64,000 bases of DNA from Myxococcales bacterium. Its GTDB lineage: Bacteria; Myxococcota_A; UBA9160; UBA4427. This document shows, piece by piece, positions 1,412-10,984 of this stretch (position 1 is its first letter; each line of letters starts with the position of its first letter). The position numbers and the translations under genes were made by a program. The stretch lies in assembly GCA_014240165.1 (NCBI GenBank), contig JAAZXM010000004.1:1-64000 (forward strand), read 5' to 3'. Under the pieces are notes generated by a model that was not told the DNA's origin, did not search any database, and saw only the letters and a list, made by a program, of their open reading frames with translations.

Positions 1412-2647
1412 TTGGCTCAGGCGCTTCCTGCGATCTCGACTGCCCCGGTCGTCCCGGCTTCGAAGTGGACCTTGCACTATGCCGCCGGAGTCTTCTGGCT
1501 CGTCTATTTCCTGACGAATAGTTCCGTTTGGATCAACGACCTGGCCCCTTTTCCCAGTTATTACCCGCTTATTGGCACCTATCTTCTCTATCTCGCCCTC
1601 ACAAGCCCGGTGCAGGTTTTCGAATTCATCACCAAGCCAATCACATGGCTCTGGGCCCTCACAGCGCTCGTGCCCTTGGCGCTCTTCTACTTCGGCTCTT
1701 CCCACAATTCTTATGCCTGGGGTTCGGCCACGATCCGAGTGACCTACTTCTCGGTTTTGGCGGGTACAGGTGTGCTTCTTTTGCACCCCGATGGGTTCAG
1801 AATTCTGAAGACCGCCGCGAAAATTTCTCTTGCCTTCGCGGTGGTGACCATTCTTCTCGACCTCGTTGTGTACAACCCCTACAACTCGGCGGAGGGAGGG
1901 GGACGAACGGCGGGCTTTTATGGCGATGCCAATTTGGCGGCCGCCGCGATCGGAACCTTGCTTCTTCTGAGTGTCGACTTCAGCCGGCAGAACCTGAAGA
2001 GCATGTTGATCGTCGGAATATCCCTGCTCGCAATTATCTCCACCCAGAGTCGCTCGGGAATCATTTTCGCTTTCCTACTTTCAGCGGCCTACATCTTCCT
2101 GCCGAGAGGTAGAGATACCTTCTCCGGCGGGACCCGAACGACACTCGCGGTGAGTGGGTTATTTCTGCTGATAATTACCGTGGTCATCGCCGGTCAAATC
2201 TTGGATATCGACAGCTCACAAGCGTGGCGGATTCGCTCACTGCTGACCCTGGACATCAGCGATATCTCTTCGCAGGGGCGCATTTACTCTGCAGAGGATG
2301 CATTGGATGGTTTTCTATCGGCCTTCTGGACCGGCCTGGGATTGGGCGCGTTACCCGCGTATGCATATAGTCCTCATAACGCCTATCTGGCGGTTGCGTT
2401 GGAGTATGGGGTCGGAGGCTTGGTTCTCTACTTCGTCGTGATCATTCACGCGCTATCGAAAGTTTTTCGTTTCGGGATCAGGCGCGCCCTGACCAATCTT
2501 CTTCTGACGTTCCAATTCGCCTATTACAGCCTTTTCTCACACACCGTACAGACCAACACGATCTTTGCCGTGTTCTTCGCAGCAGTCATCGTGAATGCGA
2601 CAATCAGTGAACCGGAAGAAAACAGCAGCGAAACCCGAGTCGTATGA
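1412..2647 (+). CDS. O-antigen ligase / Wzy-like polymerase family membrane protein
   Basis: 411 aa, many TM segments, central STQSRSG motif typical of O-antigen ligase family; first gene of glycan cluster; TTG start in the track is uncertain. Confidence 0.75.
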   Translation: MAQALPAISTAPVVPASKWTLHYAAGVFWLVYFLTNSSVWINDLAPFPSYYPLIGTYLLYLALTSPVQVFEFITKPITWLWALTALVPLALFYFGSSHNSYAWGSATIRVTYFSVLAGTGVLLLHPDGFRILKTAAKISLAFAVVTILLDLVVYNPYNSAEGGGRTAGFYGDANLAAAAIGTLLLLSVDFSRQNLKSMLIVGISLLAIISTQSRSGIIFAFLLSAAYIFLPRGRDTFSGGTRTTLAVSGLFLLIITVVIAGQILDIDSSQAWRIRSLLTLDISDISSQGRIYSAEDALDGFLSAFWTGLGLGALPAYAYSPHNAYLAVALEYGVGGLVLYFVVIIHALSKVFRFGIRRALTNLLLTFQFAYYSLFSHTVQTNTIFAVFFAAVIVNATISEPEENSSETRVV

Positions 2648-2710
2648 ACGTGACCTGTGACCAAAGTCGAAAAACGATTTTCATTGTCTGAAGGATCGGA
2701 ATCATCCAGC

Positions 2711-3841
2711 ATGCGAATCACGTTGGTTTCACCTTCATTCCTACCGGCCACCGGCGGAGCAGAGTTCGTAGTGCACAACTTGGCCCAGGCGTGGGGGCGG
2801 CAGGGTCATGAAGTCCGCGTCCTCAATTGGGTGGGGGGAGAAGCGACTCATGATGAAGCGACCTATACCGTTGCGCGCTTCAGGCTCCTTCGCGGGGCGC
2901 CGAGAGTGGGCTACCACCGCTTCCCATGGGGTCTCTATTCCCGCGGCGATATCGCTCGGCAGCTTCGGGATTTCAAGCCGGATTTCATTTCCGCGCATAT
3001 GGCTTATCCCACCGGTTACTATCTAGATGGTTTGATGCCAAGCTGTCCCCACGTCATCACTTGCCACGGCAGCGACCTCACTGGCTTCGCTTGGGGTTAT
3101 CGGCAGCAATACGATATCGACGAGGTTCTCCGAAGCGCCCTCAATGGGTGCACGGGTGCAATCGCAATCAGCTCAGTTGCGCGCAGGCTGATGGAAGAAC
3201 TCGGCGTCGAGCCAGAGCATATTCATGATATTCCCAACGGAGTAGACCTCGAGCGTTTTCGCAAGCAGGTTGAATTTGATCTTCGGCAGCATTTCGAACT
3301 CGATAGGACAAAGCGGATCATCTTGAGCGTGGGTCGCGAGCATGAGCAGAAGGCGTATGCCACGGGTTTGAGAGCTTTTGCCCGGGTTGCGCAACGGGAT
3401 TCGCGAGCGCATTACCTCCTGATAGGAGGAGGGAATAGCGTTCATTCCGGCCTTTGCGATGAACTGGGAATCCGCGACCGGGTCACGCTTTGTGAGGGAC
3501 TTTTCGGAGACCAATTGGTCGCAGCCTATCAACAGGCCGATATCTTCTTCTCGCCTTCGATCTGGGAGATGATGCCCCTGGTGGTGTTGGAAGCGATGGC
3601 CTCGGGTCGACCCGCCGTGGTGACCAATATCAGTGGCAGCCAGGATCTGGTTGTCCACGAGGAGAATGGCTTGGTGGTCGAGCCGAACGATATCGGGGGG
3701 CTCTCAGATGCATTGCTTCGGTTGCTGGCGGACGAGGCGTTGCAGCGCTCTTTTTCCGAGTCGATGCTCGAGCAGTCCGAGCGATACTCCTGGGAGAGTG
3801 TGAGCAAAAGCTACCTGGCCTTGTCCCAGGGAAATCCATGA
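2711..3841 (+). CDS. Glycosyltransferase family 4
   Basis: MRITLVSPSFLPATGGAEFVVHNLA..., PNGVDLERF, SPSIWEMMPLVVLEAMASGRPAVVTN: GT4 signatures. Start chosen at the internal ATG. Confidence 0.9.
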   Translation: MRITLVSPSFLPATGGAEFVVHNLAQAWGRQGHEVRVLNWVGGEATHDEATYTVARFRLLRGAPRVGYHRFPWGLYSRGDIARQLRDFKPDFISAHMAYPTGYYLDGLMPSCPHVITCHGSDLTGFAWGYRQQYDIDEVLRSALNGCTGAIAISSVARRLMEELGVEPEHIHDIPNGVDLERFRKQVEFDLRQHFELDRTKRIILSVGREHEQKAYATGLRAFARVAQRDSRAHYLLIGGGNSVHSGLCDELGIRDRVTLCEGLFGDQLVAAYQQADIFFSPSIWEMMPLVVLEAMASGRPAVVTNISGSQDLVVHEENGLVVEPNDIGGLSDALLRLLADEALQRSFSESMLEQSERYSWESVSKSYLALSQGNP

Positions 3842-5037
3842 TCTCGCCCCTTCGCATCCTTATGATCTCCCCGCAATTCAATCCATTGACCGGGGGCTAC
3901 GAACGAGCTGCCGAAAGGCTTTCCCGCAGCCTTCTGGCTCGAGGGCATCATGTCGAGGTCGTTGCCGAGCGGAGAGATTCCGTCTGGCCAAAGCGCGAAG
4001 AAATCGAGGGGCTCTCGGTCACCCGGATATGGTGCGTCAATCGGCGTCGCCTTCATGTCGCAACGGCTTTGAGCAGCTTAGTATTTTTTCTTTTTCTGAA
4101 CGGGCGCAAATTCGATGTCTTTCATGTTCATCAAATGGGATGGGCCGCCTCGGTGGTCGTCTTGTGTGGGTGGATATTGAGTCGGCCAGTAGCCCTTAAG
4201 TTGACGAGCACGGAAGACCTGGGAATCAATTCTCTGATCTCCGATACGCTCATGGCCCGCCTTCAGTGCAGGCTTCATAGAAACATCGACCTTTGTCTGG
4301 CGACCAGTGATAGGGCTGCGCGCGAAGCGAGTAGATTCGGAGTTTCTGCCGAGAACATCAAGCGAATCCCGAACTTGCTCGACACCGAACTCTTTCGTCC
4401 GCCGGATCCGGAGAGTCGGGTTGCAGTACGCCGCAAGCTCGGGGTTGGGGAAGAATTCCTGGCCATTGCGGTCAGCCGACTGGATCCTGTCAAACACTAC
4501 GAAATGATGATCGACGCCTGGGAGAAATTCGCCCTGGAAAAAGAGCAAGTGAAGTTGGTCATTGTGGGAGATGGTCCCGTCGAGTCCGAGCTACGCGAAA
4601 GGGCAGCGAAATCAGCCGCGTGTTCCTCGATAAATTTTGCGGGTGCCGTTCAGGATCCGGCACCGTGGTATCAGGCTTCGGATATTTTTCTGCTCTCATC
4701 TCGGCTGGAGGGCCTCTCCAATAGTCTTATGGAGGCGCTCAGCTCGGGCCTTCCCATCATTTCGACTCGAATTTCGGGGAGCGAAGACATCATAGGGGAG
4801 ACCGAAGCAGGCGCTTTGGTGGAAGTGGGCGACTCGGCCGCGATGGCGATGGAACTTGGGCGCTTTCATGAGGACGCAGACCTGAGGCTCGCCTGCGCAT
4901 CCCGCGCCCGGCGATACGCAGAGGATCATTACTCGGCGCCCATCGTGGTGGAGAAAATCGAAGCTGCGTACATGCGCTCGATCGAGAGAAAGAAGACTAC
5001 CTCACGAAACTTGAAACCTTCGGCCGATCAGAAATGA
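3838..5037 (+). CDS. Glycosyltransferase family 4
   Basis: MISPQFNPLTGGYERAAERLS..., IPNLLDTELF, SSRLEGLSNSLMEALSSGLPIISTRISGSEDII; 4-nt overlap with upstream gene. Confidence 0.9.
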   Translation: MISPLRILMISPQFNPLTGGYERAAERLSRSLLARGHHVEVVAERRDSVWPKREEIEGLSVTRIWCVNRRRLHVATALSSLVFFLFLNGRKFDVFHVHQMGWAASVVVLCGWILSRPVALKLTSTEDLGINSLISDTLMARLQCRLHRNIDLCLATSDRAAREASRFGVSAENIKRIPNLLDTELFRPPDPESRVAVRRKLGVGEEFLAIAVSRLDPVKHYEMMIDAWEKFALEKEQVKLVIVGDGPVESELRERAAKSAACSSINFAGAVQDPAPWYQASDIFLLSSRLEGLSNSLMEALSSGLPIISTRISGSEDIIGETEAGALVEVGDSAAMAMELGRFHEDADLRLACASRARRYAEDHYSAPIVVEKIEAAYMRSIERKKTTSRNLKPSADQK

Positions 5038-5807
5038 TTTACATCGTTCTCGGTATGCACAAGTCTGGCACGACTCTGGTTTCCCAGATGTTGCACCGCT
5101 CCGGCATCGATATGGGCGACGGTTTCGAAGATGGAGGGGGCTATGACGATGGCAACCAGTGGGAAAGGCGAGAGGCCTTTCTCATCAATCTCGAACTCTG
5201 CGGGTGCAGTGAGGCCGGGTACTACAGTCTCGACCACTACCGTGAGATTCGGGGAGAGCTTCGAGACGAGCAGATTTCTGAAATGAAGAAAATGATTCGA
5301 AACTGCGAGGAATCAGGTGGCGATTGGGGCTTCAAAGAGCCCCTTACATGTCTGACCTATCCGCTCTGGAAGCGGGTTCTTCCGCCGCATCGGGTCGTAG
5401 GGGTCTACCGAAATCCGATCGAAGTCATGAATCATTATCGCGTGACAAACCGCAGGCCTGCCGAAGCATGGCGAGTCCTGCGTGCCTGGTCGAATTACAA
5501 TCGGGGTATGATGGAGGCGGTGCGGGAAGGTGGTCGCGACTGCTTGATTCTTCGCTACGAAGATCTGATGCGGTCAAATACGGATTTCAGTCGGCTAGAG
5601 GAGTTCATTGGACGCAAGCTCGAGGATGTACGAAATCCGGGGCAATATCGCGCACGCGCCAAGAATCCCCTCTTCGGGCCTGTGGAGCGGCTCATGGGTC
5701 TATCGCCCATTGGCCGCCCTTCGAATCTTTTAGGCGAACTGGAAGCGATGCGCGTGGAGACCTTGAGTTCGCAGATGCTGGATCCGATGCAGGGTCAGGG
5801 CACTTAG
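5034..5807 (+). CDS. Sulfotransferase family protein
   Basis: N-terminal [28 protein letters not shown] (5'-PSB-like loop) and [15 protein letters not shown] (3'-PB-like); overlaps upstream GT. Confidence 0.8.
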
Positions 5808-5871
5808 AGTAAGCTCGCGCACCGCGAATAGGGCCCTTGGGCCCTCTGGCGAAAGGCAGTTGGAGAGAGCG

Positions 5872-6879
5872 ATGAAGATCCTGGTTACGGGTGCGGCAGG
5901 TTTCATCGGGTCCTCGCTCGCCTATCGACTGCTGGAAAGAGGCGATGAGGTCATCGGGGTCGATAACCTGAACGACTATTATGACGTGAGCCTCAAGAGG
6001 TCACGGCTTGCGCGGCTGGAGAATCATCCGAAATTTACAGATCTGCGCTTCGATATTGAAGATGGAGATGCGCTTTCTCGGGCTTTCTCGGAACACCAGC
6101 CCCAGCGTGTGGTGAACCTCGCCGCCCAGGCGGGAGTCCGATATTCGCTTGAAAACCCCCATGCCTATGTCTCTGCCAATCTCGTGGGATTCGTCAATAT
6201 ATTGGAAGCCTGTCGCCACGGCGGTGTAGAGCACCTCGTCTATGCGTCCAGCAGTTCGGTCTACGGTGCCAACACACGCACTCCTTTTTCTGTACACGAC
6301 AACGTCGACCACCCCATCAGTCTCTACGCGGCTTCGAAGAAGTCCAATGAACTCATGGCGCATACCTATAGTCACCTCTTTGAGCTGCCCACTACGGGGC
6401 TGAGATTTTTTACGGTCTATGGCCCCTGGGGTCGGCCAGATATGTCGCTCTTTCTTTTTACCAAGAAGATATTGGCCGGAGAGCCCATCGATGTTTTCAA
6501 CTATGGAAATCACCGAAGGGATTTCACCTACATCGACGATATCGTGGAGGGTGTCATTCGGACCCTCGACAACATCGCAACGGCAGACCCTGATTGGTCG
6601 AGTGATGAACCGGATTCGGCGTCAGGGAGCGCACCCTATCGCCTCTACAATATCGGGAGCAATAACCCGGTGGAACTTCTCCGCTATATAGAACTCATCG
6701 AGGAGCGCCTGGGAATGAAGGCTGAGAAAAATCTTCTTCCGCTCCAGCCAGGCGATGTGCCTGATACCTATGCGAACGTGGATTCACTGATGCGGGATGT
6801 CGGGTACAGGCCGACTACGCCGATCGAAGTGGGGATCACGCGCTTTGTCGACTGGTATCGCGACTACTACGGCGTCTAG
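5872..6879 (+). CDS. NAD-dependent epimerase, UDP-glucuronate 4-epimerase-like
   Basis: [46 protein letters not shown]..., YAASKKSNE catalytic motif; strong resemblance to UDP-GlcA 4-epimerases. Confidence 0.9.
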
Positions 6880-6907: not shown

Positions 6908-7576
6908 ATGCAGGAAATTCAACTGATCGAGCCGGCTTTTACGCAACTCAACCCAGTTGAGTTCGCTTTCAACTTATTCCTCTGCATTGTCGCTTCGTTC
7001 ATGCTGCGAAGCGTTTATGTCAAGCGGTCGATTTCTCTGTCAGGGAAATTCCATATAGGAACGGTCATTCCCATTCTGGCCTGCGTAACTTTTCTCGTCA
7101 TCATGGTGGTGAAGTCATCCCTGGCACTCTCCCTGGGGCTCGTGGGCGCCTTGTCGGTCGTTCGCTTCCGCACGCCCATAAAGGAGCCCGAAGAACTTGT
7201 CTATCTCTTCCTGGCCATTGCACTTGGTCTGGGATACGGGGCAGGTCAGTCGGTGGTGACTTCGGTCGTCTTTCTGGTCATCTTGGTTCTTATCATGCTC
7301 TGGCTCTCAAGAACCTCCATCGCAAAGCAGGATGAATACAACCTGATGATCGATTGGACTGATCGCGAAGTGGAAGTCAAAGATCTCTTGAGCGCGATAT
7401 CCGATCATACTGAGCAGGTCGAGATGCAAAAATACAACGTGGGCGAAGCTGGCAGTTCGCTCTTTCTGAAGGTGATGCTTGACGACGTTGAGAAGTTGGA
7501 GGCCATTCTGCGCCAGGTGAGAACGATTGCGCCCGCAAGCAACTGTTCGTTCTACGAGGCTCGGCCGCTGCAGTGA
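6908..7576 (+). CDS. DUF4956 domain membrane protein
   Basis: MQEIQLIEPAFTQLNPVEFAFNLFLCIVAS...SLALSLGLVGALSVVRFRTPIKEPEELVYLFLAIALGLGYGAGQ: DUF4956 pattern; TM helices then soluble tail. Start moved inward from 6797. Confidence 0.8.
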   Translation: MQEIQLIEPAFTQLNPVEFAFNLFLCIVASFMLRSVYVKRSISLSGKFHIGTVIPILACVTFLVIMVVKSSLALSLGLVGALSVVRFRTPIKEPEELVYLFLAIALGLGYGAGQSVVTSVVFLVILVLIMLWLSRTSIAKQDEYNLMIDWTDREVEVKDLLSAISDHTEQVEMQKYNVGEAGSSLFLKVMLDDVEKLEAILRQVRTIAPASNCSFYEARPLQ

Positions 7577-7598
7577 AGGAAGGTGGCGATCTAGAGGC

Positions 7599-10313
7599 AT
7601 GAAGATCAGGAAGGAGAAGGCGGGGTTCGGGCTCATCCTGGGTGCCCTCACGCTCTTGATCGCCGTATTTCTGGCTCTATTGCCGTCGATTCACAGCTCA
7701 ACTCGGCACGATATCGTCAACCTGATCTGGGACGCTCCGTCCAAAATCCTCGATCTGTCAGAAGCCACTCGGCCTGGCCCATTTGGAATCGTGTTGGATT
7801 TTCTCCCGGCGCTTTTGAGCGGGCGCTTTCCCGCGGAAGTCGAAGAACTGCGCTTGGATATCAAGTTCAGGCACTATCGCAAGATTCAAAGCGATCGGGG
7901 CCAGGCGATGGAAGTGGGCATGCTGCGAGAGCCAGTGAGCGTGCCGGCCACTTTGGAATACGGCTCGAAGCGCTACCGGGCCAGGGTAAGGCTGAAGGGT
8001 CGCCTGACCGATCATTGGATGGGCCCGGATCGCTGGAGCCTTCGCGTCCGGCTTCGCGGCGGAAAGACGATAAGGGGGCTGAATCAGTTCTCCCTTCAAC
8101 GCCCTCGTGTCCGTCAGATCCCCTTTGATCAGCTGTTTCAGTTCTGGGGCCGAAAGATGGGCATCATGACTCCCGATTTCGAATTCTTTCGCCTTTATGT
8201 CAACGGAGATTATTGGGGAATCACGCTCGCCGAGGAACATATGTCCAAGCATTTCCTCGAGCGAAATCGGCGAAAAGAAGCCCCGCTCATCAAGCTGAGC
8301 AGCATCGACTACTGGTACTACCAGCACGCGAATTCCAAGCTCCCAGCTGCTCCGAAAGCCTACTACGGTGTCCCCGATATCGGCCTATATGGTGAGAGCG
8401 CGTACCGGGACGACGGGCGCATGCGTTCGCTCTTTGGTTATGGTGCTGAGAGATATAGGAGTTGGCGTCAGGGCGAGTTTCCGCTTGGCAATTTGGTCGA
8501 CATCCCTTCCTTTACAAGAGCATTGCTCCTCGCACTCGCATGGAATCACCAGCATGCGCTTCACGAAGCGAACTCGAGATATTATCTCAACCCCTACACG
8601 CTTCTGCTCGAACCTGTCACCACCGATCAGCCGACTTACACGCCCTTCAATACGAGTCTTCCTTCGGCGAACCCGCCCTTCGTGGAGAGAGGCAGGAATT
8701 TGCCCTTGATCTACCAGCACCTCATTCAAGAGGACGGCTTCTACGATGAGTATGCGAAGGCCATCGAGGAGATGAAAGAATCTCTGCCCACTCTTCGTGA
8801 CGAGCACCAGCGAATATGCGAATCGTTTCCTTTCGATTGCCCAGATCACAACGAGGAACTTCTCGTAAAAAATATCCAATGGTTGGAAGAAAAAGGAAAG
8901 CCATATCTTCGCAAGCTGGCCGAAAATTTGTCGGCGGACTGGAAGGCGCCCAACCTCGAAGTCGAGTTGGGTAATCCAATCCCGCCCGATCCTCGCATTG
9001 AATACCCTGAACATGTCTATGCTGAGTACAGGGAGGGGGGTGTGCTTCGGCTTTACAACCTTCTGAGCCATCCTGTTGAAGTGAGAGATATCCGGGTCGC
9101 TTGCAAGTCGGATGGCGATCGCGGGAAAGAAGAGGGCGATTGCCTGTCGGGGTCGGTGATCGAATCCCCCTTCATCCTGAACACGGGGAAGATCGGCTCG
9201 TTTCCCTACTACCGCGATTTTGAAATTCGCCAGGGTCACGTCAACGATTCGAAGCAACTCTTGATTACTACGGTGTTGGGAGAAGAAAGCCGGGAGATCC
9301 GAGTTCGATTCTCTACGGTGTCTGGCCTCATGAACCCACTCATTGACCGACCCACTCTGGAAGCGTCGGGAGACTTGCCCAATTTCTTGGAACTCGACGG
9401 AGATATGATCCGTATTCTTCCCGGAGTTTGGGTGGTCGATGAACCCTTGATCTTCCCCGCCGATCAGGAAGTTGTTGTCGCTCCTGGAACAGATCTGCGT
9501 TTCGGACCCGAAGCCTACCTTCTCGTCCGGGGAAGATTGCTTGCGGAAGGAACCCCAGACAGGCCCATTATTCTCGGCCCAACCGAAGATAGCTGGCGAG
9601 GCCTATACGTATCCCAGGCCCAAGGCAGGTCCCGTCTGCGCCATGTGATTTTCGAGGATACGAATTTTCTGGAGGATGGCGCTCTGCAACTGACGGGTGC
9701 GGTCAATTTCTTCCGTTCGGACGTTACGATGGAAAGCGTATCCTTTTACGGTTCAAAGGCAGAGGACGCCCTGAATATCATCGAATCCGATTTTGAGCTG
9801 AGAGGTACAGTTTTTCGAGAGGCTCGCTCTGATGCTTTCGACGCTGACTACAGCGACGGAGTCATCCTTAATTCCAAGTTTTTCGATATTGGCGGGGACG
9901 CGCTGGATACCTCGGGTTCAGAGATTTCCGGAGAACATCTTCTCTTCGAAGAGATCGTCGACAAGGCAATTTCAGCGGGTGAGGGGAGCCGCGTGAGAGT
10001 AGATCATGTTGTTGCCCGAGATGTTGGTGCCGCGGTCGTGTCCAAAGACGGGTCCGACCTTTCTGTTCAGCACCTTTCGGTTTTTAATGCGAGGGTTGCG
10101 GCGGGCATGGCCTATCGAAAGAAGAGCATTTACGGCCCGGCGCGCTTGACGATTTCCTCTTCAGAGCTGGGCGATGCGCTCTTCTACAACCAGACAGGAA
10201 GTAATTTGACAGTCAATGGACTGCCGATCACTGAGACCGATTTGGATGTTGACGCCCTCTACAGGGAGGGCCCGATGAAGAAGCTGGGGCGGGAAGATGT
10301 GGTAGCCCGCTGA
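7599..10313 (+). CDS. CotH-like kinase domain protein with C-terminal right-handed beta-helix
   Basis: CotH-like LRVRLRGGKTIRGLNQFSLQRPRVR...FFRLYVNGDYWGITLAEEHMSKHFLERN...; then beta-helix-like LDGDMIRILPGVWVVDEPLIFPADQEVVVAPGTDLRFGPEAYLLVRGRLLAEGTPDRPIIL. Start at ATG 7599. Confidence 0.8.
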   Translation: MKIRKEKAGFGLILGALTLLIAVFLALLPSIHSSTRHDIVNLIWDAPSKILDLSEATRPGPFGIVLDFLPALLSGRFPAEVEELRLDIKFRHYRKIQSDRGQAMEVGMLREPVSVPATLEYGSKRYRARVRLKGRLTDHWMGPDRWSLRVRLRGGKTIRGLNQFSLQRPRVRQIPFDQLFQFWGRKMGIMTPDFEFFRLYVNGDYWGITLAEEHMSKHFLERNRRKEAPLIKLSSIDYWYYQHANSKLPAAPKAYYGVPDIGLYGESAYRDDGRMRSLFGYGAERYRSWRQGEFPLGNLVDIPSFTRALLLALAWNHQHALHEANSRYYLNPYTLLLEPVTTDQPTYTPFNTSLPSANPPFVERGRNLPLIYQHLIQEDGFYDEYAKAIEEMKESLPTLRDEHQRICESFPFDCPDHNEELLVKNIQWLEEKGKPYLRKLAENLSADWKAPNLEVELGNPIPPDPRIEYPEHVYAEYREGGVLRLYNLLSHPVEVRDIRVACKSDGDRGKEEGDCLSGSVIESPFILNTGKIGSFPYYRDFEIRQGHVNDSKQLLITTVLGEESREIRVRFSTVSGLMNPLIDRPTLEASGDLPNFLELDGDMIRILPGVWVVDEPLIFPADQEVVVAPGTDLRFGPEAYLLVRGRLLAEGTPDRPIILGPTEDSWRGLYVSQAQGRSRLRHVIFEDTNFLEDGALQLTGAVNFFRSDVTMESVSFYGSKAEDALNIIESDFELRGTVFREARSDAFDADYSDGVILNSKFFDIGGDALDTSGSEISGEHLLFEEIVDKAISAGEGSRVRVDHVVARDVGAAVVSKDGSDLSVQHLSVFNARVAAGMAYRKKSIYGPARLTISSSELGDALFYNQTGSNLTVNGLPITETDLDVDALYREGPMKKLGREDVVAR

Positions 10314-10984
10314 TGTGGCGATACGAGATAAAGTACGCGGTTCTCGACAGCGATCTCGTCTATTTCGAGAATTGGCTCGAGGGGCAGCCTCATTTCAGGC
10401 GTTCCTACCCGCGGAGAATCGTCAACTCGATCTACTACGATACGCCCGACTTTACTACGGCCATCGATAATATCTCTGGCATAGCCGACCGCGCCAAATA
10501 CCGTTTGCGATGGTATGGCCTCGAGGAAACCCCTGCGTCGCGGTTCGAGATCAAAGTCAAGAAGGGGAGGCTGGGTCGTAAAGTTTCTGCGGATCTTCCG
10601 TTGCGGGCGTCAGAGTTCGAATCAATGACTTCGACAGACCGGGATCGCCTGCTTGTTGAGGAGGAGAGCCTTAGGGGGGAACTGCCTTCGGCGGACCCTC
10701 TCCAGAGCGTTCTCCTGGTGAAGTATACGCGCGACTATTACGAACGCGGCAGGGAGATTCGAGTCACAATCGACCGAGACCTCTCCTTCGGAGATTTGGC
10801 CTCAGGGCTGGCCGACGGAAAGCAGAGGCCAAGTACCCTGGCGATCAACGTGATCGAGTTCAAATTTGCTCCCGATGACAAGGATTTGGCCGCAGAGGTC
10901 ATGTTCGACCTTCCCTTCTACCCCGTTCGGAATTCGAAGTATATGTTGGGCCTGAGCCGCCTCGGCCGAAGCGTCTATATATGA
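10313..10984 (+). CDS. VTC domain (polyphosphate polymerase-like) protein
   Basis: MWRYEIKYAVLD...YPRRIVNSIYYDTPDFTTAIDNISGIADRAKYRLRWYG...RFEIKVKKGRLGRK: VTC-domain pattern; overlaps CotH gene stop. Confidence 0.85.
   Translation: MWRYEIKYAVLDSDLVYFENWLEGQPHFRRSYPRRIVNSIYYDTPDFTTAIDNISGIADRAKYRLRWYGLEETPASRFEIKVKKGRLGRKVSADLPLRASEFESMTSTDRDRLLVEEESLRGELPSADPLQSVLLVKYTRDYYERGREIRVTIDRDLSFGDLASGLADGKQRPSTLAINVIEFKFAPDDKDLAAEVMFDLPFYPVRNSKYMLGLSRLGRSVYI

Follow-up and report, generated by a model that had tools for sequence, protein, structure and literature searches.

Introduction

In the eukaryotic VTC complex, Vtc4 produces polyphosphate on the cytosolic side, and the complex is thought to pass this polymer through a membrane channel (PMC10657179). 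In Gram-positive bacteria, accessory genes encoding CotH, poly-phosphate polymerase and DUF4956 proteins adjoin pelDEADAFG clusters, for which kinase regulation of glycan synthesis has been proposed (PMC7112168), and a Clostridium perfringens locus carries CotH and VTC genes together (PMC2879425). Bacterial VTC proteins are widespread and DUF4956 is rarely named in the literature that we searched, in which we found no paper giving bacterial VTC proteins a product, none reporting an activity of a bacterial VTC or DUF4956 protein, and none usefully joining CotH, secreted kinases and polyphosphate.

Here we analyse a DUF4956-CotH-VTC gene trio in the window, a 64,000-nucleotide stretch of the Myxococcales bacterium contig JAAZXM010000004.1. 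The trio shares with the Gram-positive Pel accessory set the same three families, their contiguity and their position near polysaccharide genes, but differs from it in gene order, in the fusion of a beta-helix to CotH, in a His that replaces an Asp, and in the clade to which its VTC protein belongs. No pel genes are present among the genes annotated between 1412 and 13866 on this contig, which begins at window base 1.

Gene organisation and neighbourhood

All three genes lie on the plus strand and their products exceed the Pfam cut-offs: a 222-aa DUF4956 membrane protein (PF16316; 6908..7576, 62.7 bits versus a curated cut-off of 30.6), a 904-aa CotH-fold/beta-helix protein (7599..10313, 32.5 bits versus 23.8) and a 223-aa VTC domain protein (10313..10984, 75.9 bits versus 23). 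The families and coordinates that the initial annotation assigned to 6908-10984 are therefore correct, as is the tight spacing that it described, with the CotH ATG at 7599 lying 22 bp past the DUF4956 stop and the CotH stop and VTC start overlapping as TGATG. The three genes form one operon, and the genome (4.28 Mb, 94% complete) carries one copy of each family, at this locus. Promoter matches equalled the shuffled expectation and terminator matches exceeded it only slightly. An NCBIfam search returned no named match, just a weak RelA/SpoT C-terminal match to DUF4956; single-sequence PDB searches were uninformative, and family profiles were required. G+C content is 0.53-0.57 over the window's opening 11 kb and somewhat higher in most later sequence, up to 0.63.

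DUF4956 begins 29 bp past a sugar epimerase gene. That gene ends a run of five glycan genes on the plus strand, identified by annotation and Pfam (1412..6879; an O-antigen-ligase-type Wzy_C, two GT4 glycosyltransferases, a sulfotransferase and the epimerase), and the trio closes this glycan operon in the window genome; window base 1 is the first base of the contig, placing genes farther upstream outside view. A role in envelope modification had been suggested from this neighbourhood, a weak inference given that homologues of the GT and epimerase genes are in reach at only 5 of the 27 other trio-type loci (some of these loci being short). Other trio-type loci adjoin PKS, phosphodiesterase and further kinds of genes. 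We rejected the trio as a component of the glycan cluster because glycan genes are not conserved beside it in relatives; it is an autonomous, portable module whose glycan neighbours are peculiar to the window genome. Divergent from the glycan operon, on the minus strand at 1-577, lies a gene truncated by the contig end; it encodes a collagen-like protein that is exported and contains Gly-X-Y repeats (GDKGHRGDKG...).

The VTC-DUF4956 pair

That the three families recur together in diverse bacteria had been stated from general knowledge, and genome-neighbourhood analysis bears this out, in keeping with the Gram-positive precedent (PMC7112168). A search with the VTC protein by itself yielded 43 loci in three phyla (Bacillota, Bacteroidota and one archaeon), and at all 43 a DUF4956 gene adjoins VTC or lies within ~1 kb of it (divergently in L015). 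Across 91 genomes of the window's class, VTC was found in 34, DUF4956 in 35 and both in 33, such that DUF4956 is present in 33 of 34 genomes with VTC versus 2 of the 57 without it (Fisher p=3e-21) and CotH in 24 of 34 versus 9 of 57 (p=2e-7). The VTC-DUF4956 pairing is thus beyond chance, and at many loci the pair stands with no CotH nearby. At L088 (9334-10298) the CotH gene of a trio is split over three frames, through decay or assembly error, with DUF4956 and VTC intact.

The Pfam VTC match (PF09359) covers positions 2-232 of the 235 in the profile, and a family profile of the VTC protein matches yeast Vtc4 across the entire domain (E 5e-23). The basic-tunnel residues, whose absence would have refuted the initial reading, are all in place (R3, K7, K62, R64, R66, E79, K81, K90, R140, R150, D154, E182, K184 and K209). 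Across 37 diverse sequences the basic tunnel and the metal-binding Glu do not vary, and they align with Vtc4. Because of this whole-domain match and these invariant residues, polymerase chemistry is likely for the VTC protein. Like the eukaryotic complex, the system combines a whole VTC domain and its tunnel residues with a membrane partner; unlike it, the window protein lacks an SPX domain and has no membrane segment of its own, and its partner is DUF4956, for which we claim no kinship to Vtc1. Neither PPK1 nor PPK2 was found in the 4.28 Mb, 94%-complete window genome. PPK1 is present in 40 of the 91 genomes of the class and is not associated with VTC, and we rejected the idea that VTC stands in for PPK1, since VTC and PPK1 occur independently of each other across the class, though the window genome lacks both PPK1 and PPK2.

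DUF4956 has about five predicted membrane helices, and its AlphaFold model (mean pLDDT 85.3) comprises five long helices followed by a C-terminal ACT/ferredoxin-like domain with a weak fold match to the MgtC C-domain and to the PII-like SbtB. The family alignment contains an invariant VRFR motif (R86 and R88). Profile comparison with MgtC gave a probability of 90% with one alignment and 55% with another, and the window protein has no Pfam MgtC (PF02308) match; kinship at the profile level is only remote. One DUF4956 protein beside VTC (G039:C75, at L128) matches Pfam MgtC below the threshold (E 9.4e-4), which also indicates remote DUF4956-MgtC kinship. The two families share a multi-helix membrane part and an ACT-like C-terminal domain, while DUF4956 differs from MgtC in its VRFR motif, its VTC partner and its failure to match Pfam MgtC.

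Operon types and export

In the VTC tree, DUF4956-CotH-VTC loci of uniform layout form one clade of 17 rows (support 99/98), and the window sequence lies on a long branch, grouped with Saprospiraceae at weaker support (88/67). A second VTC clade comprises 11 loci (L098, L099, L100, L101, L104, L105, L106, L108, L109, L110 and L112). Their source genomes all belong to the window's class, and two belong to its genus. In all 11, an EmrA/HlyD-like adaptor comes after VTC-DUF4956, joined in 9 by an OEP-type outer-membrane protein (at L110 the contig ends); only two of these nine OEP-type members pass Pfam alone, and the others were assigned by homology to those two. This arrangement, with no ABC or MFS pump, is an apparently undescribed export layout.

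In export systems, adaptors make up the periplasmic part and OEP proteins the outer-membrane part, and VTC-DUF4956 in the second clade therefore most plausibly occupies the place of the inner-membrane exporter. As in HlyD/EmrA-OEP tripartite exporters, an adaptor and OEP are present, here following VTC-DUF4956; unlike in those exporters, no ABC or MFS pump intervenes, and the window operon itself carries neither adaptor nor OEP. By analogy, the second-clade operons imply export of the VTC product, and they provide our main new argument for export.

These operons also bear on whether the VTC protein could instead be a triphosphate-tunnel hydrolase or nucleotide sensor that forms a signalling unit with an MgtC-like DUF4956 and exports no polymer. 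Other tunnel enzymes hydrolyse triphosphates, and the MgtC-like architecture of DUF4956 with its ACT/PII-like domain would suit such a unit. However, the nearest solved relatives of the window protein are Vtc proteins, the VTC profile matches inorganic triphosphatase only weakly, and related operons contain export parts, leaving a signalling role improbable.

The CotH-fold/beta-helix protein

The Pfam CotH (PF08757) match spans just 51 residues of the 904-aa protein; the full kinase-like domain (residues ~81-445, 7839..8933, plus strand) was found with a family profile, which matches B. cereus CotH (5jd9, E 1.5e-26), and by Foldseek, which matches 5jda (E 2.7e-11). Helix 9-27 forms an N-terminal membrane anchor. 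The AlphaFold model (mean pLDDT 79.7, pTM 0.82) shows that the C-terminal ~300 aa, a domain absent from the initial annotation, form a right-handed beta-helix (residues 591-885, 9369..10253, plus strand; pLDDT mostly ≥95), also identified by Foldseek and alignment. It is structurally nearest to glycan-active enzymes (GH87, alginate lyase and AlgG) and carries an invariant ladder of D723, N726, D745, D748, D750, D767, D770, D788, K789, S792, E795, K816, D817 and K841.

Within the catalytic loop (residues 319-343, 8553..8627, plus strand), His319 occupies the position of the B. cereus CotH catalytic-loop Asp (NFDGF), an equivalence that relies on an HMMER alignment to 5jd9 and a MAFFT alignment. 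We take this Asp to be the catalytic D228 of B. subtilis CotH, a residue that no paper in our search named together with CotH. All 18 trio-type relatives that are full-length and intact, including two Saprospiraceae, have His at this position, and the metal-binding residues Asn325 and Asp343 are invariant in the same 18; Glu213 is also invariant in the intact set. The protein thus shares with the Bacillus CotH spore-coat kinase (5jd9, 5jda) its fold and metal-binding Asn and Asp, and differs from it in the His, the membrane anchor and the C-terminal beta-helix. Its description as an exported CotH-like protein kinase stands as to family, fold and N-terminal anchor, but "protein kinase" is only a putative label since the catalytic-loop Asp is an invariant His. 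Of the two losses of key residues named beforehand as refuting, the one in the VTC tunnel is not seen, whereas the one in CotH is, at this Asp.

In a sample of 20 additional CotHs of the class, the canonical Asp is present in 16 and His in 3, and 1 is unclear; we accordingly rejected the notion that His-type CotHs are exclusive to trios. The three His-type proteins (L147, L148 and L149) have no VTC or DUF4956 found on their contigs, and those of L147 and L148 are short (frames of 396 and 448 aa).

The missing Asp weighs against the kinase-regulation model proposed for Pel clusters, in which CotH would be an active kinase that phosphorylates envelope proteins and thereby regulates glycan synthesis, with VTC and DUF4956 as accessories. 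The occurrence of the same families beside pel genes (PMC7112168) and the glycan operon of the window genome are consistent with this model, but glycan genes are not conserved beside the trio and VTC-DUF4956 dispenses with a nearby CotH at many loci, and we regard it as a distant prospect.

Trio-type CotH copies with eroded kinase residues occur in four genomes with paired CotH/beta-helix genes (L078, L082, L086 and L092). The copy that lies between DUF4956 and VTC has an almost complete beta-helix ladder in L078 and L086; in L082 the ladder of that copy is eroded too. In an alternative reading, the CotH domain would be a pseudokinase or serve as a binding platform, the beta-helix would do the work by trimming, epimerising or holding a glycan of the envelope, and VTC-DUF4956 would export polyphosphate as a matrix or cation-binding polymer. 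The uniform His in all 18 intact relatives and the acidic ladder kept by L078 and L086 despite their lost kinase residues would fit such a platform, as would the glycan-active fold neighbours of the beta-helix and its slightly better conservation among trio-type relatives (mean identity 0.33 versus 0.29 for the kinase domain). Asn325, Asp343, Glu213 and His319 are nevertheless invariant in the intact set, unlike the residues of a decaying pseudokinase, and we consider this alternative credible but rather unlikely.

Discussion

We propose, with a probability of about 0.45, that the trio combines a polymerase-exporter of polyphosphate type with a non-canonical phosphotransferase, which it supplies outside the cytoplasm and which modifies the envelope. 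The cytosolic VTC protein would polymerise terminal phosphates taken from ATP, yielding polyphosphate or a closely related chain derived from NTPs, as its conservation with Vtc4 suggests. DUF4956, its partner by co-occurrence, would move the chain across the inner membrane, potentially with its ACT-like cytosolic domain gating passage. Outside, the anchored CotH/beta-helix protein, whose kinase fold retains the metal-binding Asn and Asp and has His for the usual Asp, would use the chain or its phosphate to alter a glycan or protein of the envelope; the beta-helix would serve as a glycan-engaging or second catalytic part. The likely substrate in the window genome would be the polysaccharide of the upstream genes, and must differ in relatives.

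In favour of this polymerase-exporter reading are the pairing of VTC with DUF4956 at 43 of 43 loci and in 33 of 34 genomes, the Vtc4 profile match (E 5e-23) and invariant tunnel residues that point to polymerase chemistry, the precedent of cytosolic synthesis and translocation by Vtc4 and the VTC complex (PMC10657179), and the lack of PPK1 and PPK2 in the window genome. The adaptor (11 of 11) and OEP (9) of the second clade, the uniform trio layout in one VTC clade, and the union of anchor, CotH fold and glycan-enzyme-like beta-helix in one protein are also in its favour. Against it, the missing kinase Asp may mean that no phosphotransfer occurs, and four genomes have trio-type CotHs with eroded kinase residues. 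The literature that we searched contains no activity for bacterial VTC or DUF4956, the latter resembles MgtC, which is no established exporter, and the argument for export is an analogy drawn from relatives in another clade and not from the window operon. A more specific scheme, in which the CotH-fold enzyme draws phosphate from exported polyphosphate via the invariant His319, acting as base or phospho-carrier where kinases have Asp, and hands it to a glycan held by the fused beta-helix, is speculative and we give it little credence; if true, it would define an ATP-independent class of periplasmic kinase.

Within the literature searched, the new features are the beta-helix fused to CotH, the consistent Asp-to-His change, a VTC clade of the trio's own, operons in which an adaptor and an outer-membrane protein accompany VTC-DUF4956, and a remote kinship of DUF4956 with MgtC. 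They turn a vaguely defined trio into a testable hypothesis, a VTC-DUF4956 synthase-exporter core coupled to a His-swapped kinase fold with a beta-helix, which bears on how bacterial envelope material comes to be phosphorylated when the periplasm offers no ATP. If the polymerase-exporter reading is true, the trio would allow cell-surface material to be altered beyond the cytoplasm, in surroundings poor in ATP.
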